This document shows positions 1,136-27,956 of a stretch of 35,053 nt of DNA, one piece after another; position 1 is the first letter of the stretch, and the number at the start of each line of letters is the position of its first letter. Location: positions 1 to 35,053 of IMG/VR virus record IMGVR_UViG_3300025759_000300; one strand, 5' to 3'. The translations under genes were made by a program, and so were the position numbers. A model generated the notes under the pieces. That model did not search any database, had not been told where the DNA came from, and was given only the letters and a program-made list of their open reading frames with translations. Origin of the DNA: a virus.

Positions 1136-3586
1136 TTAACTCTCTTTAATTAATTTTAAATCGTTTTCTTCAAAATGATTTTCTATTATGTCTTCTCGTA
1201 TAGTATTAGTTAATTTCCAAGTTAATACAACCCCCCTGACTGTTTTACTTTGTATGCGCTTGACAGCTGTAGTTATATTTAGTCTAGACATTGCTTTAGT
1301 AAAGTCTCTTTGTGAAAGTTTATTACGACTATCGGTAAGAATATCGTAAACTAATTTAAAGTGAGACATAGGTATACACATGTCTTGACCTACACGTGCA
1401 ACCCAATCCTTAACATAGCGTTGTGCTGTACTTATACCACCGGCGTCAAAAGTGTTTGTAAGTGGTATTTCTAATACATCAATAAAATATTCGAGATTAC
1501 GTTGTCGAATTGCAAAAGCAAACTCTTCAAGTACTGACATAGAAATTTCTTTCATTTGTGTTTTAGCTTCATTTTCTAACGCAGTATGTGCCATGCGTTG
1601 ATCTACTTTAAACTTATTTAATATCCCTGCTATAGTGTACAACTCAGTCTCTAGCTGCGTCATGTTTGTAAGTAACTCAGGATGAGCTTTTTCTAATTTT
1701 ACTTCTTGTCTGGGGCCTACATTGTAACGACGATCCCCATCTTCTATTTTTACCGCATCGCCTCTATTAGTAAGAAATAAGAAATTACAAAAACTTGGCA
1801 GCTCAATTTGGTTTGTACGCATTGCGCGAATAGTAAGATTAGGTTCTGTTATTTGATGTTTTAATTTATCTGCCATTTTACCAACTGAACCTGAATCTGC
1901 CATCCTAAATTCGTCAACTACAAGAAAGAGCGCTGTTCTCATGTATAAATTAAATTGTTCTTCTATGTTTTCTAGCGCTCGCATTGGTACTTGTTGTTCA
2001 CCAAATAAAGGTTTAAGTACTTTATGGATTAACAACCCTTTACCGGTGCCTGGTACACCAGTAAAAATCCATGCTGTCATTGTTTTGCGTTTATTCTGGT
2101 AAATGTATGCAAGCCAATTAATAAAGTGTTCAAACTCTGTTTTACCTGAGCCAAGAACATGGGACAACAACTTCGCAGTTAAGGGAGCTGCGCTGTGAAG
2201 TTTGTGTGCTGTCCCATATTCTAATTCAGGTGCATCTTCTGATGCTTGTAACATGTAAGGAGTTTTTCTATATAAGTTTACATAGTAAGGTGCTTCTTCT
2301 AACTGGATACCTTTATTAACAGACGGGTCAAATACAACCCGAGCGTCAGGAACGTAATCCAAGGGAGGGCGACTATGAGAACGCATAAAATCTTCAATCG
2401 ATTGTTTATTTGTTGGAGTAAGTGGGTATTCGTCTGTAAATTGTTCAATTGTTTCATCATAAATTCCGTTGTAATAAGTGTCAGTGTAAAAATCTCTTAA
2501 AGCAATTGGTCTTAACTTTTTATCCTGATCTATTTTGTCTGCAAATATTTCAAAGATATTTTTATAGAAGTCTGGATCTGCTTTTTGTATTTCCCAAATA
2601 GGTTCACCTTTAAAGTTATACATGTAATGTGGGCTCGTTAATAAAAAATAATATCCAGCACTGTCACCGCCATTAACATTACAATTAACATAAGGTTCTG
2701 CAACCCTGCTTACTTCGATTGTCATCTTATCAGGGTTTTGTAATACCTCTTGTGGTTCTCCAGCAATAGTAATTGTGCTGGTTTTAGTTGTTTTCTTTGG
2801 TAAGTTTAATTGTTTTCTTAAGTTATCTTTTATTTGTACGCCTAAGTTGTGCACTCGTTCTGGGTTAACAGAAAACAATAATGTAGAAAGATCTAAGGTT
2901 GATGATCCACGGTTGATTAACACAAAACGTGAACCTTGTATTGGATCTTTTACACCATCAATAAAAGTAGGGGGTGCAATATAAATAATTTTAGAGTTGT
3001 CAGCTACGCCTGGATCAAGTTTGTAAGATAAACTTTGACCATTTGCAGACAGAGTTAATCGTTCTGCTAAAAATTGTGTTTCATAATTTAATAATTTAAG
3101 TGCTTCTTTTAATACTTTGGGGTGTATAGAATTTTCTAATATAAAAAAGATGTGTAAAGAAACAGATTCTTTTTTATATCCTAATGAAGCGCTGGCTTGT
3201 GCAATGTATGTTACATCGTGAAACTCAGGAGGTAATTGCTGTACAAGTTGTTCAGCTAAATTTTCTAGGTCTTGTGTGTTTAATTCAGTTTTCTTTGGTA
3301 AAGGTAATTGAATATTATCAAAATCAAGAACAAGTAAATGAGTTGATGCTACACGGTCCGTCATCAACGCTCGAGGTTCGTTGTTTAACTCACGTTTAAG
3401 GGGTCCTTTGTGTAAACACATACCAGCTGAGGCCGCTTTTGTAAGTTCTGTTAATAACTTACTTGGATCTTTTTTGATTGATTTGTGTACTGATGTAAAA
3501 TTTTTAATCAGTGGATAAGGTGTCACTCCTTGTTTAGATATTTTTTTTGCAAGCTTTTGCTTGGCTTTGAGGAAAACTAGCTCCAT
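1136..3586 (-). CDS. Primase-helicase: N-terminal AEP-like primase plus C-terminal SF3 helicase (DUF5906 type)
   Basis: This 816-residue replication protein joins two modules. The N-terminal part has LDFD (D88 and D90) and a later SVSLHIFF (H145), compatible with the metal and nucleotide-binding positions of archaeo-eukaryotic-type primases. The C-terminal part has a Walker A GVPGTGKG at 510-517, Walker B LFLVVDEF at 553-560, a sensor-like FLFLTN at 602-607 and an arginine pair at 619-620. This is the layout of the SF3 helicase domain of P4-like plasmid and phage primases. It would unwind DNA and prime synthesis for the PolA encoded upstream. AGGAG lies 6 nt before the ATG. The helicase assignment is firm. 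The primase half rests on short motifs only. Confidence 0.87.
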   Translation of the reverse strand: MELVFLKAKQKLAKKISKQGVTPYPLIKNFTSVHKSIKKDPSKLLTELTKAASAGMCLHKGPLKRELNNEPRALMTDRVASTHLLVLDFDNIQLPLPKKTELNTQDLENLAEQLVQQLPPEFHDVTYIAQASASLGYKKESVSLHIFFILENSIHPKVLKEALKLLNYETQFLAERLTLSANGQSLSYKLDPGVADNSKIIYIAPPTFIDGVKDPIQGSRFVLINRGSSTLDLSTLLFSVNPERVHNLGVQIKDNLRKQLNLPKKTTKTSTITIAGEPQEVLQNPDKMTIEVSRVAEPYVNCNVNGGDSAGYYFLLTSPHYMYNFKGEPIWEIQKADPDFYKNIFEIFADKIDQDKKLRPIALRDFYTDTYYNGIYDETIEQFTDEYPLTPTNKQSIEDFMRSHSRPPLDYVPDARVVFDPSVNKGIQLEEAPYYVNLYRKTPYMLQASEDAPELEYGTAHKLHSAAPLTAKLLSHVLGSGKTEFEHFINWLAYIYQNKRKTMTAWIFTGVPGTGKGLLIHKVLKPLFGEQQVPMRALENIEEQFNLYMRTALFLVVDEFRMADSGSVGKMADKLKHQITEPNLTIRAMRTNQIELPSFCNFLFLTNRGDAVKIEDGDRRYNVGPRQEVKLEKAHPELLTNMTQLETELYTIAGILNKFKVDQRMAHTALENEAKTQMKEISMSVLEEFAFAIRQRNLEYFIDVLEIPLTNTFDAGGISTAQRYVKDWVARVGQDMCIPMSHFKLVYDILTDSRNKLSQRDFTKAMSRLNITTAVKRIQSKTVRGVVLTWKLTNTIREDIIENHFEENDLKLIKES

Positions 3587-3595
3587 GTTTAACTC

Positions 3596-3778
3596 CTATG
3601 TTTTATTTTTTAAATTGTATACTTCTTCCCTGTCAATGATAACTGATGAATCTGCTTCAAAAGCAAGTTTAACTTGTTTAAGGCCTACATGAGTAACAGT
3701 TACTTTACATAGTTCCTGATCATCTTGTTGTAGAATAATTGAATCCCCCTTTTTTCTTGTTAAAACTAAATTTTTCAT
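3596..3778 (-). CDS. csrA: CsrA/RsmA-family RNA-binding translational regulator
   Basis: The 60-residue product aligns along its length with bacterial CsrA: LVLTRKKGDSI at the N-terminus, KVTVTHVG and QVKLAF strands, and the hallmark DREEVY near the C-terminus. The two RNA-contacting regions are kept: R8 and K9 match R6 and R7 of E. coli CsrA, and R50 matches the essential R44. A four-residue insertion lengthens the loop between strands 1 and 2. CsrA dimers bind GGA motifs in mRNA leaders and usually block or alter translation (family knowledge). The ATG overlaps the polymerase stop as ATGA, and the stop codon lies in the ribosome site of the next gene, so it sits inside the replication operon. 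The target, host or phage mRNA, is unknown. Confidence 0.88.
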   Translation of the reverse strand: MKNLVLTRKKGDSIILQQDDQELCKVTVTHVGLKQVKLAFEADSSVIIDREEVYNLKNKT

Positions 3779-5574
3779 TTGTCATATTGTTGACTATGTC
3801 CTCCTTCTGCGTCAAGTGGTAAATCTGAACACCAAAGAGGAGGTGTTTTCATTATATCTATAATTTTGTTAAGTGTCTCGTCTGGATTAATATTTGACCC
3901 AATAGATATAATCTCATCATGGACTTGTAATACAACTGATACTTCAGGCATTCGGTGCACAGCTAACATTTGTTCAACAATTACGGCCCGGGCTAACGCT
4001 TGTACTACATTTTCTACAAGGCGTGCCCCATATGTTTTAATCATTGTTTTACCTGAGTTATACATATGATTGCCATTTTCATAAATAAGTCCTGGATAAT
4101 TTAAATGCATACCATTTGGCAGCTCAATAGCTTTTGATTTAATAAACAAAGGTCCATAAGGAACTTTATTATCTTTGTTAGTTACAGCCATAGTAAATAA
4201 ATGATATTTAAATGCATTCCACAGCTGTGGTATGTTGGGGTACATAGCTCGATATTGACTAACAATTGACATAGCAGTAGTTTCTGTAATATCAACGGAA
4301 GGAGTACCAACTTTAAGAGTATATTTAAATTTTTCATGGCCCATACCATAACCCAGCCCTAAAATAGCTGTTTTACCAACATAACGTTCTAGTTTGTCAG
4401 CTTTTGTTACAGGTTTTCCATAAATTTGAGAAGCAAATTCACTGTACACATCACGGCCAGCAGCGAATGCGTTAAGTAAATCTTGTTGATTAGACAACCA
4501 TGCAAGCATACGCGCTTCGATGTTTGATAAATCAGCAACAAATAAACGTTGACCTTCAGGAGCTGTAAGTGCTTTACGTAAGACAGATCCTCTGGGTAAG
4601 TTTTGTAAATTAAGACTGTCTGTACCACCAAAACGCCCAGTGTGCGCTGCATAATATCTAAGCGGTACTGGAAATGTACCATCAGGGTTAATGTTTTCTA
4701 AAAATCTTTGTGCACGGGTTTCTTCTAGTCGTGATTTTACAGCTTCCCTGGCGTCCCATAAGTGTTTGTATTCTGGATACATGTTTTGCATTTGTATATA
4801 TGCAGAATCTGTTTTACTAAAAGCAGGGATTTGTTGTCCTGTATTAGGGCTTTTCTTTGTTGGTACAGTAATATCTAAACTTTCTAAATGTTCAGCAAAC
4901 TTTTTTTGAGATGCAAGTACATCTCTTGTTACGCCAGATTTTTCAATAAGATTTAAAGTTCTTTGTTTTGTTTCTTCTTTGTGGGTTATTAATAGTTCAC
5001 TGTTTAATGTAAGTTTTGGTTCAACAAACATACGACAGGTGAGATCTATTACATCTAATTCTTCTTGAGGGTATGTTTGTATAAATTGTTGAAAGATTGC
5101 ATAAGTTAAATCTACGTCTTGTATACAATACCCTCCAATTTGTTCGTCTAGTTCGGGGTTTAAATCACGTATACCTTTTGCATTAATTAACTCTTCTCCT
5201 TTACGCATAGTTTCATCGTTAGGAAATACACGTTCAGCGGTCGCTTTTAAAGACGCAGATTGATTTGGATACAAACCACGGGCCATGGCAGCTGTGTCGT
5301 AATAGTATGCTGGATATAAACCAAGGTGTTGTGTAAGTATGTAAGCATCGAATAGAGTATTGTGACAAATTACAGCACAGTCTTCCCAGGGGATCTCTTG
5401 TAATGCATCTAAATATTCATCTTCACCGAACCATTCTGTGGGTTCATTATTAAATTTAATACCTACGCCCCAGATTTTAAATTCTGGGTGGTGTACATAT
5501 TGCAATGTAGTCTGCTTTGATAATGAAAGTTCAGTATCATAATAAGTTTCAAAGTCTAAATAAACTTTATTCAT
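3775..5574 (-). CDS. polA: Family A DNA polymerase with 3'-5' exonuclease domain
   Basis: The 599-residue enzyme is the phage replicative polymerase. The exonuclease is complete: D7 and E9 in LDFETY, D76 in CHNTLFDAY, and Y149/D153 in YCIQD. The polymerase domain shows motif A with D348 (VADLSNIEAR), motif B with R397, K401 and Y409, and motif C VHDEI at 551-555. The residue matching E. coli Pol I F762 (T7 Y526) is leucine, L405. In virioplankton PolA, leucine here is associated with temperate or slow-replicating phages and is thought to lower speed and raise selectivity (literature knowledge). There is no 5' nuclease domain, as in T7. It overlaps csrA by 4 nt and the small upstream gene by 8 nt. 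Confidence 0.95.
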   Translation of the reverse strand: MNKVYLDFETYYDTELSLSKQTTLQYVHHPEFKIWGVGIKFNNEPTEWFGEDEYLDALQEIPWEDCAVICHNTLFDAYILTQHLGLYPAYYYDTAAMARGLYPNQSASLKATAERVFPNDETMRKGEELINAKGIRDLNPELDEQIGGYCIQDVDLTYAIFQQFIQTYPQEELDVIDLTCRMFVEPKLTLNSELLITHKEETKQRTLNLIEKSGVTRDVLASQKKFAEHLESLDITVPTKKSPNTGQQIPAFSKTDSAYIQMQNMYPEYKHLWDAREAVKSRLEETRAQRFLENINPDGTFPVPLRYYAAHTGRFGGTDSLNLQNLPRGSVLRKALTAPEGQRLFVADLSNIEARMLAWLSNQQDLLNAFAAGRDVYSEFASQIYGKPVTKADKLERYVGKTAILGLGYGMGHEKFKYTLKVGTPSVDITETTAMSIVSQYRAMYPNIPQLWNAFKYHLFTMAVTNKDNKVPYGPLFIKSKAIELPNGMHLNYPGLIYENGNHMYNSGKTMIKTYGARLVENVVQALARAVIVEQMLAVHRMPEVSVVLQVHDEIISIGSNINPDETLNKIIDIMKTPPLWCSDLPLDAEGGHSQQYDK

Positions 5575-6950: not shown

Positions 6951-7128
6951 CAGTTAGTCTCCACAATAAATAAGCAGTACATCCCATAGCAACTAGGATG
7001 CCCACTAGCATAATAAAATGATGCAATGATGTTGCAATGGCTAATAAGCCAAGAACTACTGCACCTCCAGTTAGAACAGATACACCAAATTCTTTAGCGT
7101 GCTGTTCAAATTTCGATGATTTCACCAT
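6943..7128 (-). CDS. 61-residue two-span membrane protein
   Basis: A short charged N-terminus (MVKSSKFEQHAKEFG) precedes two hydrophobic segments at about 17-34 and 37-56. The start lies 23 nt inside the end of the VWA gene in another frame, and the end overlaps the 50-residue membrane gene by 8 nt. The overlaps tie its expression to the VWA gene. No family is recognised. It could be a membrane partner of the MoxR-VWA pair or part of a lysis set. Confidence 0.7.
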   Translation of the reverse strand: MVKSSKFEQHAKEFGVSVLTGGAVVLGLLAIATSLHHFIMLVGILVAMGCTAYLLWRLTDG

Positions 7129-8203
7129 AAGGCGCTTCTCCTTTTTCTGTAGTTACCCAGAGAACTGGATAAGGGGGTTGATCTCCAAAGTCGTCTGAAC
7201 CTAAATCAGTGAGATACACTAACGCAGCTACACGTGGGTGCTTTTCGTTAATGTAATCAATAACAGGACTAAACATAGTTCCGCCTCGACCTTGGTACTC
7301 AACTTTGAGTGGTAATGATTCACGTGTGTATTCATCATCTTTGTGAACTTCAGTATCGCATTGAATAAAATGGATACGTTCTGGACTTAGATCACGCAAA
7401 ATATGAGATGTTTCACTGGTAAAAGTTTGTAATTCTTCATCACTTACTGAACCAGATGTATCAACTGCAATAGCAATTTCTTCAAGACAAGGGTTGTACA
7501 TAGAAGGAAGATACATACCTTGCCAGATAAAACGTCGGTTAGGCCGTATCCAACTAAAATCAGAATTGGTATTAGCCCGCAAAAATCTTGCAAGTACTGC
7601 ACGCCAATCAACTTTAGGTTTTACAATATCTTCAATAAGAGTATTCATGTTAGCAGGTAGTTTGCCTTGTGCTCTTGCTTGTTCAGCTGCTTGTTGTATT
7701 GCAACAGTTAGTTGAGATTCAACAGCACCAACAGATTCACTGGATCCTGCATCAGGGTGGTCTAGAACATCGCCAGCACCTTTAGCACTCAACAGGGCGC
7801 CAAAGCCCTCTGGAGGTTCGGGCAATATACTGTATACATGCTCGGTAGTCATGTCGGCGTATTGTTCATCGAGAAGACCACCCGATGGAAGAATAAAAGC
7901 ATTACTTTTAAGAATAAGATTAATAACGTAATCTGCAGCCACATTCCATTTTTCTGCATGGCGTTCTTGTCTACGTGTGTGATGCATAAATACAACATGC
8001 ATAACTTCGTGAGCAAGAAAACCTATACGTTCTTCGGGTCTAAGTTTTTCAAACCAGATAGGATTGTAAAACAAATGTTTACCATCAGTGGCACCTGTAT
8101 CTATATCGTCACGCTCTACAGGTTTGAGTCTAAGACATAAGGTACCAAAAAATGGACTGTCAAGAATAAGACGTGATCGTGCACGTACAAAAGAATCATT
8201 CAT
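7106..8203 (-). CDS. VWA-domain protein with metallopeptidase-like N-terminus (DUF2201 family)
   Basis: The 365-residue protein has an N-terminal HEVMH at 65-69 within FLAHEVMHVVFMHH, followed by WNVAADYVIN, as in the metallopeptidase-like domain of DUF2201 proteins. The C-terminal von Willebrand A domain starts near 243 with AVDTSGSVS, where D248, S250 and S252 form the metal-ion-dependent adhesion site. VWA proteins of this type work with MoxR AAA+ ATPases encoded beside them to remodel or activate target complexes (family knowledge). Here the MoxR gene lies about 1.3 kb upstream in the same direction. AGGAG is 6 nt before the ATG. The substrate is unknown. The zinc site looks intact, so proteolysis is possible but not shown. 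Confidence 0.88.
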   Translation of the reverse strand: MNDSFVRARSRLILDSPFFGTLCLRLKPVERDDIDTGATDGKHLFYNPIWFEKLRPEERIGFLAHEVMHVVFMHHTRRQERHAEKWNVAADYVINLILKSNAFILPSGGLLDEQYADMTTEHVYSILPEPPEGFGALLSAKGAGDVLDHPDAGSSESVGAVESQLTVAIQQAAEQARAQGKLPANMNTLIEDIVKPKVDWRAVLARFLRANTNSDFSWIRPNRRFIWQGMYLPSMYNPCLEEIAIAVDTSGSVSDEELQTFTSETSHILRDLSPERIHFIQCDTEVHKDDEYTRESLPLKVEYQGRGGTMFSPVIDYINEKHPRVAALVYLTDLGSDDFGDQPPYPVLWVTTEKGEAPYGEIIEI

Positions 8204-8211
8204 AAAATCTC

Positions 8212-8862
8212 CTAAGATTGTAATTTACGTAATAAAACTTGCGCTTTACGTTTTTCAAAGTTATCCATTTGTTTTTTTGCAAATTGAATAAGTTCTGGGT
8301 TATTAGATTGTTGAACATCCATATCTTTAAACAACTTATTTTTATCGTAATATTTAAATCGATGGTTTTTTTGTTGAGTTTTAAATACTCTTTTCCATTG
8401 ATTATTAATATGTTGAAAAGTAGAACCATAATGTTCATAACTGTCTTTATCTAAATCAATAACTCCTTGAATATCTAACTGATACACAGGTAAAAAATAT
8501 TTAGATACATATTTATACATGGGTTGTTTACCTTCAGGCCAATCTTTTGGTCTGTATTCAGGGTGTCTTGAATAATAATGGTTTGGATCTTGATCTTCCC
8601 AACCATCTCGTACATGACCTGAACCAACATGTGCGCCCCAAGCAGCAGTAGTTCCATAGAGTTTAGAACATAAATATACAATAAACGGATCTGGTGAATG
8701 TAAATTACCATTACGATCTGTATATTGTTTTGGAATATGCCATTTGTAAGAGTTCACAAAAGCAAAACCTGTACCACCACAAAAGTTGTATGCAATAAAA
8801 CTACCAGGATCAATTAATCGTTCTGTTCCTTGGTAAATATTGGGTTGTTGCGTGTAGCCCAT
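8212..8862 (-). CDS. Hypothetical protein between MoxR and VWA genes
   Basis: A 216-residue protein, rich in Tyr, His, Trp and Gly in its first half (CGGTGFAF near 28, AAWGAHVGSGHVRDGWED near 93-110) and in Lys/Gln with likely helices in its second half. No family was recognised. It is encoded between the MoxR ATPase and VWA genes with gaps of 1 and 8 nt and a GAGG ribosome site, so it likely belongs to the same functional module, perhaps as a substrate or adaptor. The many conserved-looking His, Asp and Trp residues suggest a ligand or metal site, which is inference only. Confidence 0.75.
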   Translation of the reverse strand: MGYTQQPNIYQGTERLIDPGSFIAYNFCGGTGFAFVNSYKWHIPKQYTDRNGNLHSPDPFIVYLCSKLYGTTAAWGAHVGSGHVRDGWEDQDPNHYYSRHPEYRPKDWPEGKQPMYKYVSKYFLPVYQLDIQGVIDLDKDSYEHYGSTFQHINNQWKRVFKTQQKNHRFKYYDKNKLFKDMDVQQSNNPELIQFAKKQMDNFEKRKAQVLLRKLQS

Positions 8863-8863
8863 G

Positions 8864-9523
8864 TTAGTCCTCTAGTAAGTTTGCAGTTAATAACACTTCA
8901 TTAAGTTCTTGTTCTTGAACTTCAATGTGTTCACGTTGTTGCTGTTGTTTAGCTTTACGTTCTACTTTTTCATAAACTTTTTGCACATACTTATCTTGTA
9001 CAAGATCTTTAAGTGCAGGCCAAGCTTTGAGCGCTTGGTTAAGTGTTGAAAATGGTTCAATAGCTTCTTCAATTTTGTTGACGTATTCACGTTCACCGTC
9101 ACGACAAGCTTCGTTGTGTTTATCAACAGCTTCACATTGTTGTACAAGAAAATGCTCACGTGGCAAATGCACAGAAAGAGCTTCATATCGTTCTGTTAAG
9201 AATTTTGGGATTGTAGTATATGTATCAAAAGGACATCTATATGTCGTTTTAATGTGGTCTTCAACCCCATCGTCATCTTGTACAATTTTAGTAGTGTGAA
9301 TATCAAGTTTGTTGACTTCTTCTACTTTGTCAAAATTAATATATGCACCACCAAAATGTTCTTTTGCTTTTTCTACAAAACTAGGAATTTTGTTTTTAAA
9401 AGTTTCATTTACCCAAGTATCTGCACTAGGAAAATCTTTGTAAGGATTAACCTTTTTGAATTTTTCTCGTGCAGTGCTTCTGATTTCGCTCAACAAACGT
9501 CGAGACATTCTTACTGTAGCCAT
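8864..9523 (-). CDS. Hypothetical helical protein in the MoxR-VWA operon, possibly Nmad5-like
   Basis: A 219-residue, charged protein. The C-terminal half contains a segment EEAIEPFSTLNQALKAWPALKD (around 150-171) followed by a Lys/Gln-rich coiled-coil-like tail (about 185-210). The F-x-T-L-x-Q-x-x-x-x-W-P pattern recalls the small phage family called nucleotide-modification-associated domain 5. I recall this from memory and the match is weak. No catalytic motif is visible. AGGAGG lies 6 nt before the ATG. The 1-nt gap to the next gene and 9-nt gap from MoxR indicate co-transcription. Confidence 0.7.
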   Translation of the reverse strand: MATVRMSRRLLSEIRSTAREKFKKVNPYKDFPSADTWVNETFKNKIPSFVEKAKEHFGGAYINFDKVEEVNKLDIHTTKIVQDDDGVEDHIKTTYRCPFDTYTTIPKFLTERYEALSVHLPREHFLVQQCEAVDKHNEACRDGEREYVNKIEEAIEPFSTLNQALKAWPALKDLVQDKYVQKVYEKVERKAKQQQQREHIEVQEQELNEVLLTANLLED

Positions 9524-9532
9524 AATTACCTC

Positions 9533-10555
9533 CTATAAAACTACGTTAGCATTGTCGACAATCCACTTACGCAGTGCATCGTCGGATTTAAGATTTGGAT
9601 CAACAGCCAAACAACCTTTGACTAAGATCACTTGAAACTCAACTGGCAATTTACTGTTGAGCGTCATAATGTTTTTCATCAACTCAGGCTTAGCCCTAGA
9701 TGCAACAGCACTAGATAATGCATACAAGATAGCAGGGTTGTCGTTTTTCTTGTACGTTGTTGGGTTTTCTAACAGCTTGTCAATATCAGGGAGTTCGTCA
9801 GCAATTTCTTTGTATGCAATAAACTCACCAGCTGGACCGTCACCGACCAATGCTGAGATACCAAAGAACAACGAATCATGGTCGACGTCATCTGGTTGAA
9901 ATTTAAGTTTTCTGTCTACAAACGACCAAGATCTGGGTGTTGGAAACGCATACTCATCAGCGCTGAAGTTGTACAAAAGGCCTGGTCTGTATTGTATGAA
10001 ACCAATAACTTCTGGGTTAACATTGTTTTCATAAGCCCAAGCTGTCCAATCATCTAGGTTAGCTTCAAGCTCGTAATGAGCAAGACGATTTCTTACAGGT
10101 GATGGCATTTGATACACAGCAGCGGCATCGGTTAGTCTGTTACCTGCGGCAATTACAGACCAGCCTTCAGGTAATGTGTAATCACCAATTTTTCTGGTTA
10201 GCAAAAGTTGTAAGAAAGCATTCTGTGTTGCAGGTGGAGCTGTAGGTAACTCGTCAATAAACAAGATACCTGTATCACCATCGCGTTGCGCGATTGGAAA
10301 CACATCAGGTACGGCCCAACGTGTAAAACGTTCGCCTGTTTCTTTTACAGCTTGGATGTGAGGCACGCCACGTACATCGACTGGGTCAAACAAGTTGGCA
10401 CGAAAGTCAATCAAAGTCATTTTGAGACTGTCAGCTACTTGTTGTGGTATTTCTGATTTACCAATGCCTGGACCACCCCAGATCATTGAGTTGATGCCAG
10501 CACGCATATTCTGCTTAATTTCTGACATTAGGTTGGTGGGTTTGATTGAATGCAT
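9533..10555 (-). CDS. MoxR-family AAA+ ATPase
   Basis: The 340-residue protein has a Walker A GGPGIGKS at 27-34, Walker B ILFIDE at 97-102, sensor-1 N139 in AAGN, and an arginine-finger region at PVRNR (153-157). The DPVDVRG segment near 57-63 is typical of the MoxR branch. MoxR ATPases act as chaperone-like rings that work with VWA partners to insert cofactors or assemble complexes (examples: RavA-ViaA, CbbQ-CbbO). The partner VWA gene is in the same operon, two genes downstream. GGAGG lies 7 nt before the ATG. All ATPase motifs are intact. The phage function is not known. Confidence 0.92.
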   Translation of the reverse strand: MHSIKPTNLMSEIKQNMRAGINSMIWGGPGIGKSEIPQQVADSLKMTLIDFRANLFDPVDVRGVPHIQAVKETGERFTRWAVPDVFPIAQRDGDTGILFIDELPTAPPATQNAFLQLLLTRKIGDYTLPEGWSVIAAGNRLTDAAAVYQMPSPVRNRLAHYELEANLDDWTAWAYENNVNPEVIGFIQYRPGLLYNFSADEYAFPTPRSWSFVDRKLKFQPDDVDHDSLFFGISALVGDGPAGEFIAYKEIADELPDIDKLLENPTTYKKNDNPAILYALSSAVASRAKPELMKNIMTLNSKLPVEFQVILVKGCLAVDPNLKSDDALRKWIVDNANVVL

Positions 10556-13599: not shown

Positions 13600-13632
13600 A
13601 ATTTATCTCCATATATATAAAACATCCTAAGA

Positions 13633-13654
13633 CAACGCTCCCCATGGAGCGTTG
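13633..13654. promoter_or_regulatory. Strong 9-bp hairpin in the leader of the leftward operon
   Basis: CAACGCTCC (13633-13641) and GGAGCGTTG (13646-13654) form a perfect stem with loop CCAT. It is about 35 bases upstream of the leftward gene starting at 13599. No clear T run follows on either strand, so it is more likely a leader, attenuator or stabilising hairpin than a terminator. Confidence 0.5.
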
Positions 13655-13700
13655 CAAGCGGATATTTCGCAAGTTAGCTGTAACATCTGAACGTAAGAAT

Positions 13701-13769
13701 GCGGGTTTGCGAGCGATTGTTACACTTGTTACAGCTGATTTTAGGGTACTGTAACAGCCTGAAACCCGC
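13701..13769. repeat. Nested inverted repeats within the TGTWACA array
   Basis: GCGGGTTT (13701-13708) is complementary to AAACCCGC (13762-13769). Inside, TGTTACA (13727-13733) faces TGTAACA (13750-13756), separated by 16 bp of AT-rich sequence. The whole could extrude as a large cruciform, or fold in RNA, with the binding sites in its arms, an arrangement seen in some origins. Confidence 0.55.
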
Positions 13770-13896
13770 GTGGTTGTACTGTTTGCTTGGATTATGTTAC
13801 ATGTAACAGATGATTTATGTTCTAAGATAAATAACCACGGTCGACGGTCGTTATGGTACAACCTCTATCTGGTCTTGCTGTAACGCTGTAACATTT

Positions 13897-13912
13897 GGTG
13901 TATCAGTACACC
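13897..13912. repeat. Small perfect hairpin within the control region
   Basis: GGTGTA (13897-13902) and TACACC (13907-13912) pair around the tetraloop TCAG, just after a tandem pair of TGTAACA-type sites. The role is unknown. Confidence 0.4.
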
Positions 13913-14036
13913 GCAAAGTACCATGGCTATCGCACAGGCAAGCGTTACACTTGGTCTGTTACACATGGGCATTTTACGTGTAACACGTGTAACATCATTC
14001 CTGGAGCGAGTCGCATGGTTCATACCTGGCGGTTTT

Positions 14037-14060
14037 TAAAAAAAGCCCCATTGCGGGGCT
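14037..14060 (-). terminator. Intrinsic terminator for the leftward mini-operon
   Basis: Read on the minus strand, AGCCCC-GCAAT-GGGGCT (14060-14044) is followed directly by a run of seven T (14044-14038). It lies 13 bases after the stop of the 35-residue membrane gene and shields the TGTWACA array from transcription coming from 14,622. No T run follows on the plus strand, so it acts leftward. Confidence 0.85.
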
Positions 14061-14073
14061 ATGATAGTAGTGA

Positions 14074-14181
14074 TTACTTAGATTGGAAGAAGATAAAGAG
14101 TCGGACGACTCCATAGATTTGAACTGCTAACAGAATAGATAACAGTGAGAGGAAGATAGTTCCTGCGGTCTCTAACATCAT
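14074..14181 (-). CDS. 35-residue membrane microprotein
   Basis: The product MMLETAGTIFLSLLSILLAV... has one hydrophobic span of about 22-28 residues and ends FFQSK. AGGAGG precedes a double ATG (14181 and 14178). The first ATG overlaps the upstream stop as ATGA and the second has the better 6-nt spacing, so the protein may be 34 residues. It is the last gene before the terminator. No family is known. A small membrane-acting or lysis-timing peptide is a guess. Confidence 0.6.
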   Translation of the reverse strand: MMLETAGTIFLSLLSILLAVQIYGVVRLFIFFQSK

Positions 14182-15908: not shown

Positions 15909-17538
15909 ATGCCAAAGATGTAAAGGGTTGTATCATGAAACCCTTATATTGTTAGATGATATATGTGTTTACTGTAGGGCGGACGAGGCTGAGAAAGTGC
16001 CTGAGCCCCAGTCGAGGTCTGAACCGGTTCAAGCGAAACAAGAAGACTTATCCGCACAAGTAAAAGCGGAACAAGAACTAGCAAAAAGAATCTTAGCACG
16101 TAAAAGGTTACTCCCATTTGTTGAACGTTTTAATCCAGATTATTTAGCCGGCTGGGTACACAAAGATATCTGTCAAAGATTAGAAAGATTTAGTGAGCAA
16201 GTAGCAAATAAAGAATCACCTAGATTGATGCTCTTTATGCCACCGCGACACGGTAAATCTACTTTAGCCAGTGTTGCATTCCCTGCTTGGCATTTGGGTC
16301 GACATCCTAATCACGAGTTTATAAGTTGCTCGTATTCAGGTTCTCTTGCAATGAATTTTTCAAGAAAAGTTCGTCAACTACTTAGAGAACCAGTATATAA
16401 AAATGTGTTTGAAAAATCTAGGCTAGATAAAGATTCTCAGTCAATTGAATCGTGGCAAACGACTCAAGGTGGTGGTTATGTTGCGGCGGGTGTTGGCGGA
16501 GGTATTACTGGTAAAGGTGCACACGTAATGGTAATTGATGATCCAGTAAAAAACCGTGAAGATGCAGAATCCGATAACAACCGCGAAGCGACCTGGGATT
16601 GGTATACATCAACTGCTTATACACGTTTATCACCCGGAGGCGGCATACTTGTAATTTTGACAAGATGGCATGACGATGATTTAGCGGGTCGATTATTAAA
16701 ACAAGCAGAAGAAGGTGCGGACCAATGGGAAGTAATTAAATATCCAGCGATTGCAGAAGTTGATGAAACTTTTAGAAAATATGGTGAAAGTTTACATCCA
16801 GAAAGATATAATGTAGATGCGCTCGAGCAGATAAGGAAAGCCATCGGCCCCCGAGATTGGTCTGCTCTGTATCAACAGAATCCAGTATCCGACGAAGGCG
16901 ATTACTTTAGCCGAGACATGATCCGTTATTACGAAGATGAAGATATTGAATATGCACAACTTAATTACTATTGCGCGTGGGACCTTGCGATCGGGCAGCG
17001 TGACCGGAACGATTATTCAGTTGGTATTGTTGTCGGGGTCGATGAATATGATAATTTATTTGTTGTTGATGTCGTTCGCGGAAAGTATGATGGCTTTGAG
17101 TTAGTTGAACAGATCTTAGACTTGTATGAAACTTGGCGCCCAGGTATAGTGGGCATAGAACGAGGGCATATTGAAATGGCCCTAGGGCCCTTTTTGCAGA
17201 AGCGTACTAGAGAACGGGGATTAAGCGAAGCGTACTTTAAAGACCTAAAAGTAGGTCGTAGAGACAAAGAAGCAAGAGCACGTGCAATCCAAGGTAGAAT
17301 GCAACAAGGTATGGTATACTTTCCAAAGGACGCTGTTTGGACTGGAACCATGGTTGCAGAACTTTTACGTTTTCCAAATGGAGCCCATGATGACCAAGTC
17401 GATGCATTGGCATGGATAGGTTTAATGATGACAGAATTTGCTACTTTCTATGAACGACCGGAGCATGTTCCATCTTGGAGAGATAAGTTAAGACATTTAA
17501 CTAAAGGCGATAAACATAAATCATCGATGAGCGCTTAA
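15892..17538 (+). CDS. terL: Terminase large subunit with N-terminal zinc ribbon
   Basis: The 548-residue packaging motor and nuclease has Walker A PPRHGKS at 117-123, Walker B VMVIDD at 212-217, and the coupling segment ILTRWHDDDLAGRLL at 255-269. The nuclease domain shows D364 in CAWDLAIG, E423 in GIERG and D500/D501 in GAHDDQVDA. It pumps DNA into the prohead through the portal and cuts it. Unusually, it opens with a four-cysteine ribbon (C7, C10, C25, C28) followed by an acidic linker, before the ATPase. The start overlaps the small subunit and the end overlaps the portal by one base (TAATG). Confidence 0.95.
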   Translation: MTQKTECQRCKGLYHETLILLDDICVYCRADEAEKVPEPQSRSEPVQAKQEDLSAQVKAEQELAKRILARKRLLPFVERFNPDYLAGWVHKDICQRLERFSEQVANKESPRLMLFMPPRHGKSTLASVAFPAWHLGRHPNHEFISCSYSGSLAMNFSRKVRQLLREPVYKNVFEKSRLDKDSQSIESWQTTQGGGYVAAGVGGGITGKGAHVMVIDDPVKNREDAESDNNREATWDWYTSTAYTRLSPGGGILVILTRWHDDDLAGRLLKQAEEGADQWEVIKYPAIAEVDETFRKYGESLHPERYNVDALEQIRKAIGPRDWSALYQQNPVSDEGDYFSRDMIRYYEDEDIEYAQLNYYCAWDLAIGQRDRNDYSVGIVVGVDEYDNLFVVDVVRGKYDGFELVEQILDLYETWRPGIVGIERGHIEMALGPFLQKRTRERGLSEAYFKDLKVGRRDKEARARAIQGRMQQGMVYFPKDAVWTGTMVAELLRFPNGAHDDQVDALAWIGLMMTEFATFYERPEHVPSWRDKLRHLTKGDKHKSSMSA

Positions 17539-25797: not shown

Positions 25798-27956
25798 TGG
25801 CAGAACCAACTTTTAAAACATTTAGTGACGCAGAAGCTTACAAAGTAAATAGAACACGAGAAGTTGGCACACAGATTTCTAGAGAAAATAATCGCTTAAA
25901 CCAACAGTTGAACAAAAGCTATGCTGATTTTATACAAGACAACCCCAATAGCTTATTAAAAACCGAGCAAGATTTTGAGGCATATAAAGCTAAGTATAAC
26001 CCTGGTGATGTACAAGACCGTTTTCAGGCGTATATTGATGTATACGGACCACAAGGCGGCATGGAAAGAGCTTTTAATTATACTGGGATTGCTCCTATGT
26101 GGTTTGGTGCAGATGAAAACGAAACCCGAGAATTTGATCCTAGTACTTTAAACTACAACCCAGAAACCGGGGGATTTCAAGCGCAACTACGTGTTGCAGA
26201 TAAAAAAAATAACCGAAGCTTTACTGCACCAATTACTGCCGCTGGCAAAAAAGTAGCAGAACTTTTTGGTTTTGGTGGTCAAGAAGCAGTAGAAGAAAAT
26301 ACTCTTGCAGATGTACCGTTAGAAGCTGCTGAAGAAATGTTCATAAAGGCAAATGATTTTGTTGGTCAAAAGATAGGCGACCCGGGAATACGAATGCTTC
26401 AAACACCCACTACAAACAATGTTTTAAATCGATATGCTTTTGATCTTAGTCCAGAAGGGAGAACAGCAAAAGAACAGTTTATCCGCGACGTTACTGGCTT
26501 TGAAGAAGGCTTAGTTACAGAGGGGGAAGAACCTCAACAACAAGAGGGAGCTGTTGGTTTAGACGCATCTACACAAACGATAGACCAAGTTGCAATTGAT
26601 ATAGCAAAAAGAACTTATGGTATTGATTCTAAAAAAGATACTGCTCTTGTTAGAAGGCCCAGCGAAGTAAAAGAACTAAGAGATGCCCTTGGAGAGGATT
26701 TTTATTTAGAACCTAATTTTGAATTTAGTGAAGAAGATAACCAAAGACTTTCTGCTGATGACAAAGAACGGGTTATTAAAAGACTTAAAGAACAATCAGA
26801 TTCAAATATTACAGGGGCACTAGCCCAAGTAAAAGGCGCGGCGATAAAAAACGCTCGTGATATAAGAGAAGTGCCTGGGGCTTCTAAAGAAGAGCTAGCA
26901 CAAGCGGCAACTGTAAACGATTTTTATCAATCTAATGGAAAAGCACTAAATAAAATTTTTGCTGCACGTCCTAGCTTGTATGACGAGTTTAAAGCAGATT
27001 CAAATGCGTTTGCTTTAAAGTATAGTAATCCAGAAGAATTTAATAAAATTGATGCTAGTTCTATACCCCAAAAAGAGAAAAATGACGTTGTAAAAAATAA
27101 CCCTCTTACAGTTTCCGCTTCTGACAGAAAAGAACTTAGAGAAGCTATAAATACAAAAGACACAAAAAAAATGGGAGAAATTTTAGATAGACTATCGCAA
27201 GGACGAACAGTACCACAAGAACAACAAGAAAGAATTGTAAGTTTGCTTACAAAAACTTCTGGATATTTTAATGTAGGTACTAAACCAAATTCATTTGATG
27301 AAAAATTTACTGACTCTCTTATATTAGATATCTATGCTTCTGTACCTGCGGATCAACAAACAGATGCTTTTAGGGCTAAATTAGCTTTATTTAAAGAGAC
27401 GGGTTATTTTGACTTGAGCGGTGTTGAGCAACAAAGGAAATTAGATGCTGAAAGGCGTCAAGGCATGGGCAGTGTTAAAGATAAAGTTGTAGACGACTTT
27501 AAGGGTCTTGTTACAGAAATGTCTCAACCAAACTTTGATATTAATGAACGAATAGATATCGGACAAGAAATTAGAATGCTTAGTAATCAAATAGAGAGCC
27601 CAGCTGATATGCGAGCTTTTACTGATACAGTAGGTATTTATTTGAAGAAGTTTTTTGCCGAAAAAGGCAAGCCAACTTGGGTTGATAGGATTCTTTCTTT
27701 TGGACAAGCAAAAGGACCAGCAAGTGCTTCTTTATCACTCAAACCAAATATTCAAATTTGGGATGCTCAATACAATCGCACTAATGATCCTGCTAAAGCT
27801 GCTTATTTTGCTCCTATGGATGAAGGGGGTAAAGCAATTAGAGGAAACGCGGTTGCTATTAACACAGTTCTTCAGGGCCCAGGTGCTCCTGCTATACCAC
27901 TTCTAGTCGAGCTTGGGTTACAAAGAAATAAATTTAATATGTCGGGCGGGGAGTAA
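25797..27956 (+). CDS. Large internal virion protein (ejection-type)
   Basis: A 719-residue, charged, mostly helical protein with a Glu/Gln-rich N-terminus (TREVGTQISRENNRLNQQLNK near 20-40) and no transmembrane segment, cysteine motif or catalytic motif I could identify. Its length and place, just before the giant 2123-residue protein, resemble the gp15/gp16-type pair of podoviral ejectosomes. It may be a scaffold part of the ejection tube. The start overlaps the previous stop, and the giant gene begins 4 bases after its stop. Confidence 0.75.
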   Translation: MAEPTFKTFSDAEAYKVNRTREVGTQISRENNRLNQQLNKSYADFIQDNPNSLLKTEQDFEAYKAKYNPGDVQDRFQAYIDVYGPQGGMERAFNYTGIAPMWFGADENETREFDPSTLNYNPETGGFQAQLRVADKKNNRSFTAPITAAGKKVAELFGFGGQEAVEENTLADVPLEAAEEMFIKANDFVGQKIGDPGIRMLQTPTTNNVLNRYAFDLSPEGRTAKEQFIRDVTGFEEGLVTEGEEPQQQEGAVGLDASTQTIDQVAIDIAKRTYGIDSKKDTALVRRPSEVKELRDALGEDFYLEPNFEFSEEDNQRLSADDKERVIKRLKEQSDSNITGALAQVKGAAIKNARDIREVPGASKEELAQAATVNDFYQSNGKALNKIFAARPSLYDEFKADSNAFALKYSNPEEFNKIDASSIPQKEKNDVVKNNPLTVSASDRKELREAINTKDTKKMGEILDRLSQGRTVPQEQQERIVSLLTKTSGYFNVGTKPNSFDEKFTDSLILDIYASVPADQQTDAFRAKLALFKETGYFDLSGVEQQRKLDAERRQGMGSVKDKVVDDFKGLVTEMSQPNFDINERIDIGQEIRMLSNQIESPADMRAFTDTVGIYLKKFFAEKGKPTWVDRILSFGQAKGPASASLSLKPNIQIWDAQYNRTNDPAKAAYFAPMDEGGKAIRGNAVAINTVLQGPGAPAIPLLVELGLQRNKFNMSGGE

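Follow-up and report, generated by a model that had tools for sequence, protein, structure and literature searches.

A heptamer array of fixed geometry and changing sequence, matched to the wing of a primase-helicase, as a probable phage replication origin

We analysed a stretch of viral DNA of 35,053 bp (hereafter the window; IMG/VR virus record IMGVR_UViG_3300025759_000300), in which a gap at about 13600–14077, ahead of a set of leftward genes, holds an array of TGTWACA heptamers. A motif count on the window bears out a preliminary description of the sequence, which had reported ten exact heptamers at 13679–13994 in a gap preceding the leftward genes. The exact copies start at 13679, 13718, 13727, 13750, 13795, 13802, 13887, 13957, 13979 and 13988; two copies with one mismatch (13879 and 13943), both exact sites in some relatives, bring the array to 12 site positions. 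The left arm (13679–13756) consists of sites at 13679 (+), 13718 (−), 13727 (−) and 13750 (+), the right-pointing form being TGTAACA. It is followed by an inner left pair (13795–13808), which in the window forms the head-to-head palindrome TGTTACATGTAACA that had been described. An inner right pair on the + strand (13879–13893) combines TGTAACG (13879) and TGTAACA (13887) at a step of 8 bp, and the right arm (13943–13994) is made up of CGTTACA at 13943 (−, one mismatch), TGTTACA at 13957 (−) and TGTAACA at 13979 (+) and 13988 (+). Three tandem pairs 8–9 bp apart had been claimed, two of which are exact (13718/13727 and 13979/13988, both 9 bp), while the third, at 13879/13887, has the imperfect member TGTAACG. 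Between the arms lies a central segment (13809–13878, 60% A+T) that is presumably the unwinding region and contains the element ACGGTCGACGGTC at 13837–13849.

The clustering exceeds what base composition would produce. The earlier expectation of about 0.04 copies is correct for even base use; in dinucleotide shuffles of the whole window, TGTWACA occurred 8.5 ± 2.6 times compared with 21 times in the window itself, a number reached in none of 100 shuffles. The most frequent 7-mer per 330 bp had 3–5 copies in 40 simulated first-order Markov windows and 10 in the window, where no other 7-mer clusters comparably. An Rfam search and a nucleotide search of the 12–16 kb region against annotated phages both returned no match.

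Relatives were collected first by a terminase-guided search and then by DNA-polymerase-guided searches, which enlarged the set to dozens of arrays; the genomes compared are metagenome contigs, several of them incomplete, and arrays were detected by 7-mer counts within 10 kb. The TGTWACA array is kept in terminase-guided relatives up to about 19% terminase divergence, and in most of these its spacing is nearly base-exact (39, 9, 23, 45, 7, ~85, ~56, 13–14, 22–23 and 9 bp). The heptamer itself is absent at the syntenic gap in most relatives, some of which are equally close to the window. A motif-free scan identified replacement arrays of TGGAACA, TGGAACC, TGGTACA or GTGTACC type at the syntenic gap; TGTWACA is thus missing from many relatives because other heptamers occupy the same positions. 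Replacement sites have the positions and orientations seen in the TGTWACA array, with diverged DNA between them. We label the motif classes A (TGTAACA), B (TGGAACA) and C (TGGAACC). One phage carries TGGAACC (L019/G001) although its terminase is 94% identical to that of the window, and in deeper relatives the arrays are built from TGGCACA, TGGCACACA, CTGCACACA, TGCTACA, TGTCTCAC, CTGTGAC and GTCTCAC. Wherever an array was identified, the genome's own motif forms a single cluster, which lies in the syntenic gap upstream of the replication genes; a second such cluster, or one built from the motif of another class, was seen in none of these genomes. The array of one relative (G014) is split into two sub-clusters, and another (G007) has no array and no cluster of any class motif in the sequence covered. 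A syntenic search for the motif, as the preliminary description had proposed, therefore recovers the position and layout of the array but in most relatives not TGTWACA, and literal conservation of the heptamer was dropped as an expectation. Taking its loss beside conserved flanking genes as grounds for rejection, as had also been proposed, would have been misleading, as the heptamer is replaced at the same positions and in the same orientations.

Among bacterial-genome-contig relatives (L326–L357), 7-mer counts in 10 kb flanks did not reveal a clear array like this one. Three more distant polymerase relatives (L340, 16200–16575; L349, 10775–11150; L333, 18275–18650) contain places where other 7-mers are locally frequent, and these may represent repeats within coding sequence or additional arrays. 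Satellites sharing the array were also considered and set aside, as the class-B array pattern turned up in 26 stretches, 24 of which also bear genes that serve as markers of these phages. The other two are short, show a class-B array without any such marker in the sequence covered (L315, 712–763; L317, 213–264), and may represent satellites or phage contigs cut short.

The arrays share a common layout of two oppositely oriented arms, with inner tandem pairs (7–10 bp step) around a centre of ~78–91 bp and outer arms with steps of 9–13 and 20–25 bp. In several class-A relatives the pair corresponding to 13795–13808 is a tandem TGTTACATGTTACA rather than a palindrome. This geometry recurs in no fewer than four motif classes of the near clade and also in deeper classes, and about 27 arrays satisfy a strict geometry search, in whose listing the G014 entry is a mis-parse. 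In the deepest relatives the arms are almost perfectly opposed, e.g., <<<<<<<< centre >>>>>>. Mean A+T content is 0.66 in the centres vs. 0.54 in the arms; of 39 arrays parsed automatically, a set that includes duplicates and a few mis-parses, 34 have the higher value in the centre. The ACGGTCGACGGTC element is near-invariant in the centre of most near-clade arrays, regardless of the heptamer. To the right of the array, a terminator-like intrinsic hairpin (14044–14060, −), recognised by consensus match only, would end leftward transcripts just before the array. Beside it, at about 14059–14071, lies a ATGATAGTAGT-type sequence that is conserved in most motif classes despite diverging flanks; many relatives read TGATGATAGTAGT, i.e., serial stop codons.

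The protein that changes with the heptamer is a primase-helicase of 816 aa (1136–3586, −), which carries DUF5906 and a superfamily 3 (SF3) helicase like that of NrS-1 polymerase and is the proposed initiator. Its C-terminal domain (aa 680–816; 1139–1549, −), the proposed iteron-binding domain, is predicted to contain a winged helix with a recognition helix at aa 759–768 (1283–1312, −) and a wing β-hairpin at aa 774–789 (1220–1267, −), in which positions 775, 778 (with a deletion) and 782 vary by iteron class. Presence or identity of whole genes was rejected as the covarying factor, as no gene segregates by motif class in the larger genomes compared; the hypervariable genes at 8212–9523 were rejected for their low within-class identity. 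In a column count set against the phylogeny, alignment columns supporting a division of class A from class B number 20 of 803 in the primase-helicase, among them columns in its C-terminal ~130 residues, vs. 0–5 in other proteins, the primase-helicase also being the longest. In this six-genome column count, the terminase and the adjacent small protein did not track motif class.

Covariation was followed in the 31 genomes for which array and initiator were both available. TGTAACA goes with the wing VKRI-(deletion)-KTVRGV, one wing position is K with TGGAACA and R with TGGAACC, and all GGTAC-type motifs go with an 'AP' wing, other motifs with 'IP/VP'. On a primase-helicase tree built without the C-terminal domain, the class changes number six: three motif positions each changed twice independently, and the wing changed in the same way each time. 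Class-A-private columns number four in the primase-helicase (aa 691, 737, 775 and 778), whereas six further proteins from these genomes, about 1,890 columns in all, have one between them. Private or disjoint columns for the K/R and AP traits occur in other proteins too, so for these two traits the argument rests on the wing as the place where all three coincide. As far as can be read from sequence, this suggests that heptamer specificity switches together with wing residues of the primase-helicase.

AlphaFold2 modelling of the C-terminal domain (53 sequences, mean predicted local distance difference test score (pLDDT) 91.8) yielded helices, a recognition helix and a β-hairpin wing, and the class-tracking residues 775, 778 and 782 fall in this predicted wing. 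The best match among solved structures is NrS-1 polymerase aa 617–718 (Foldseek probability 0.98, E 0.08; Z 6.6 over 95 residues), followed by the winged helices of RFX5, ORC and Orc1/Cdc6 at Z of about 3–4, which alone show only a common fold. A sequence search of solved structures with the C-terminal domain alone found nothing significant. The helicase part matches NrS-1 (hidden Markov model E 1.7e-41; Z 27.5 over 395 residues) and the primase-helicase of the Staphylococcus aureus pathogenicity island (SaPI) SaPI5 and poxvirus D5/E5 helicases at Z 14–16, while alignments of the N-terminus in the full-length model had a root-mean-square deviation of 18 Å or more.

Two distant isolated phages with related primase-helicases carry the same kind of array and are therefore amenable to testing. 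Pseudomonas phage KPP25 has eight copies of TCGTAACA in one intergenic region (26394–26824), where an AT-rich stretch of 118 bp separates two pairs with 8–9 bp steps, the right one containing a copy with a mismatch; the most obvious divergent gap of this phage (23756–24082) was considered and contains no array. Nitratiruptor phage NrS-1 has eleven copies of AGTGTAAC at 17062–17377, directly after the primase gene. The experimentally defined NrS-1 primer site, TTTGGTTA (PMC8718748), occurs once exactly, within this array. The annotated hypothetical open reading frame NRS1_29 (17055–17456; AB746912.1, L303) overlaps the array and may not be a real gene. No comparable array was found in the gaps of Aeromonas phage phiA008.

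We consider it very probable that the array is the replication origin of the phage and that the heptamers are iterons bound by the C-terminal winged helix of the primase-helicase. The preliminary description had left the choice between an iteron origin and a cooperative operator array, and conserved geometry together with initiator covariation strongly favours the former. In the mechanism we propose, initiators bound to the iterons through the winged-helix domain would gather in two groups on the opposed arms, by which two rings of SF3 helicase would be loaded. The DNA of the central ~80 bp would melt, and two forks would leave in opposite directions, making replication bidirectional. The primase-helicase would probably make the primers, and the phage polymerase would extend them. 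The geometry of the initiator–origin complex would stay fixed while the site sequence changes, and sites would change in concert between lineages because the initiator wing changes its specificity. Specificity of the C-terminal domain for the iterons is supported indirectly, by covariation.

Several observations weigh against this reading. Among five genomes in which cumulative GC skew was computed, a single one had its turning point near the array, an inconsistent signal. Of 60 loci whose upstream sequence was long enough, 14 have no array within 10 kb by 7-mer counts, some deep relatives among them, although at least three of the 14 have one further away. The centre of the window array, at 60% A+T, is close to the ~62% of the near relatives' loci. 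Each motif position changed independently only twice, too few times for a sign test to become significant, and therefore the control proteins matter. One relative (L250) has the 'R' wing without C at motif position 7, and the G014 array is mixed GGTACA/GGTACC and does not fit the K/R rule cleanly. Finally, the window array lies about 10 kb from the initiator gene, unlike in SaPIs, where the origin lies beside it (PMC7581432). Proximity of origin and initiator is the usual arrangement and is not essential to the mechanism; an array directly downstream of the initiator gene is found in NrS-1 but not in the window.

The other half of the earlier choice, an array of operators on which a phage repressor or activator binds cooperatively to control the leftward early and perhaps the rightward late genes, is unlikely. 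Its location ahead of the leftward genes and tandem sites at steps of about one helical turn would suit such a function, and operators co-evolve with regulators too, but here the motif-tracking residues sit in a replication protein. The six other proteins have almost no class-A-private columns, a comparison that covered part of the small genes near the array. In addition, the terminator-like hairpin precedes the array for leftward transcription, promoter-like matches are not above chance, and an AT-rich centre of constant length between opposed arms is more in keeping with an origin. The array may have a dual role that includes autoregulation by the initiator.

Were the heptamers stem halves of a conserved RNA or DNA fold, e.g., a noncoding RNA, which we regard as very unlikely, the better folding of both strands relative to shuffles (z about −4.3) would be accounted for, but this is expected of any set of inverted repeats; such a fold does not need all sites to change to the same new word in both orientations, and the flanks diverge freely around an element without a match in Rfam. 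Least likely of all is a parS-like partition or pac-like packaging site bound by another phage protein: such systems have site arrays of comparable size and the terminase lies 2 kb from the array, but no ParA/ParB-like protein was recognised among the annotated proteins, and in the six-genome column count it is the primase-helicase, not the terminase or its small neighbour, that tracks motif class.

The iteron origin reading gives a group of marine phages, represented in the collections searched by metagenome contigs alone, a probable origin and initiator, provides candidate origins for KPP25 and NrS-1, and suggests the C-terminal domain of NrS-1 polymerase, a biochemically studied enzyme, as an origin binder. 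Matched iteron and wing variants also make testable the long-standing question of how an initiator and at least 10 sites change specificity jointly, and orthogonal replication origins may be a further yield. A concerted replacement would involve all 10–13 origin sites and a handful of wing residues. We see about an even chance that the iteron–wing pairs form a natural recognition code, by which repeated concerted replacement of sites and wing turns close relatives into orthogonal replicons, perhaps escaping competitors or satellites that would share the origin.

The primase-helicase shares a replication module with a PD-(D/E)XK exonuclease (371–1126, −) and a DNA polymerase (3775–5574, −) whose best phage matches are annotated as DNA polymerase I. 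A CsrA-family gene (3596–3778, −; Pfam E 1e-11) overlaps the end of the polymerase gene and is kept in nearly all relatives compared. Two tandem genes (8212–8862 and 8864–9523, −) are hypervariable, with 30–50% identity compared with 61–88% for their neighbours; the first was not found in some relatives and the second is weakly Nmad5-like. They are flanked by genes for a DUF2201 metallopeptidase/VWA-like protein and an AAA ATPase (7106–8203 and 9533–10555, −), a MoxR/VWA-like arrangement.

The preliminary description knew of no described system with this motif in such phages, which is only partly right, as the origins of P4 α and of SaPIs and other phage-inducible chromosomal islands (PICIs) work in the way proposed here. 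As in these systems, the phage encodes its own SF3 (primase-)helicase, as indicated by DUF5906, the NrS-1 homology and the SaPI5/D5-like matches, and the predicted helix-helix-hairpin layout provides a C-terminal winged helix. P4 α binds origin repeats by a winged helix but has a Toprim primase (PMC4234260). The structural matches listed include no P4 structure or P4 α origin-binding domain, although kinship or a shared fold may still exist. The same work proposed that proteins combining an archaeo-eukaryotic primase, an SF3 helicase and a winged helix recognise stem-loops, not iterons (PMC4234260); our arrays suggest otherwise for this branch, if the N-terminus is an archaeo-eukaryotic primase. 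In some SaPIs and PICIs primase and helicase are likewise fused, and the SaPI5 protein resembles the helicase part structurally; these elements are satellites in which the ori immediately follows rep, whereas in the window the presumed origin would serve an entire phage of ~57 kb and lies at a distance from the initiator gene, with a site layout fixed across many motif classes. NrS-1 polymerase (NrSPol) shares the homologous helicase and C-terminal region and has the iteron-like array beside its gene. For NrS-1, two 8-nt primer-recognition sites have been considered a possible origin, and the parts of that report available to us do not mention an iteron array (PMC7102993). Mycobacteriophage-like stoperators differ in being scattered over the genome, compared with one cluster per genome here. 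In geminiviruses, too, close relatives can differ in their iterons and in the initiators matched to them (PMC12548392); there Rep is an unrelated rolling-circle protein of other hosts that nicks its origin, whereas a helicase loader is expected here. By analogy, the array would work like the P4 α and SaPI/PICI origins, but as the presumed origin of whole phages; what is new is the repeated concerted switching of iterons, which is unusual in its amount.
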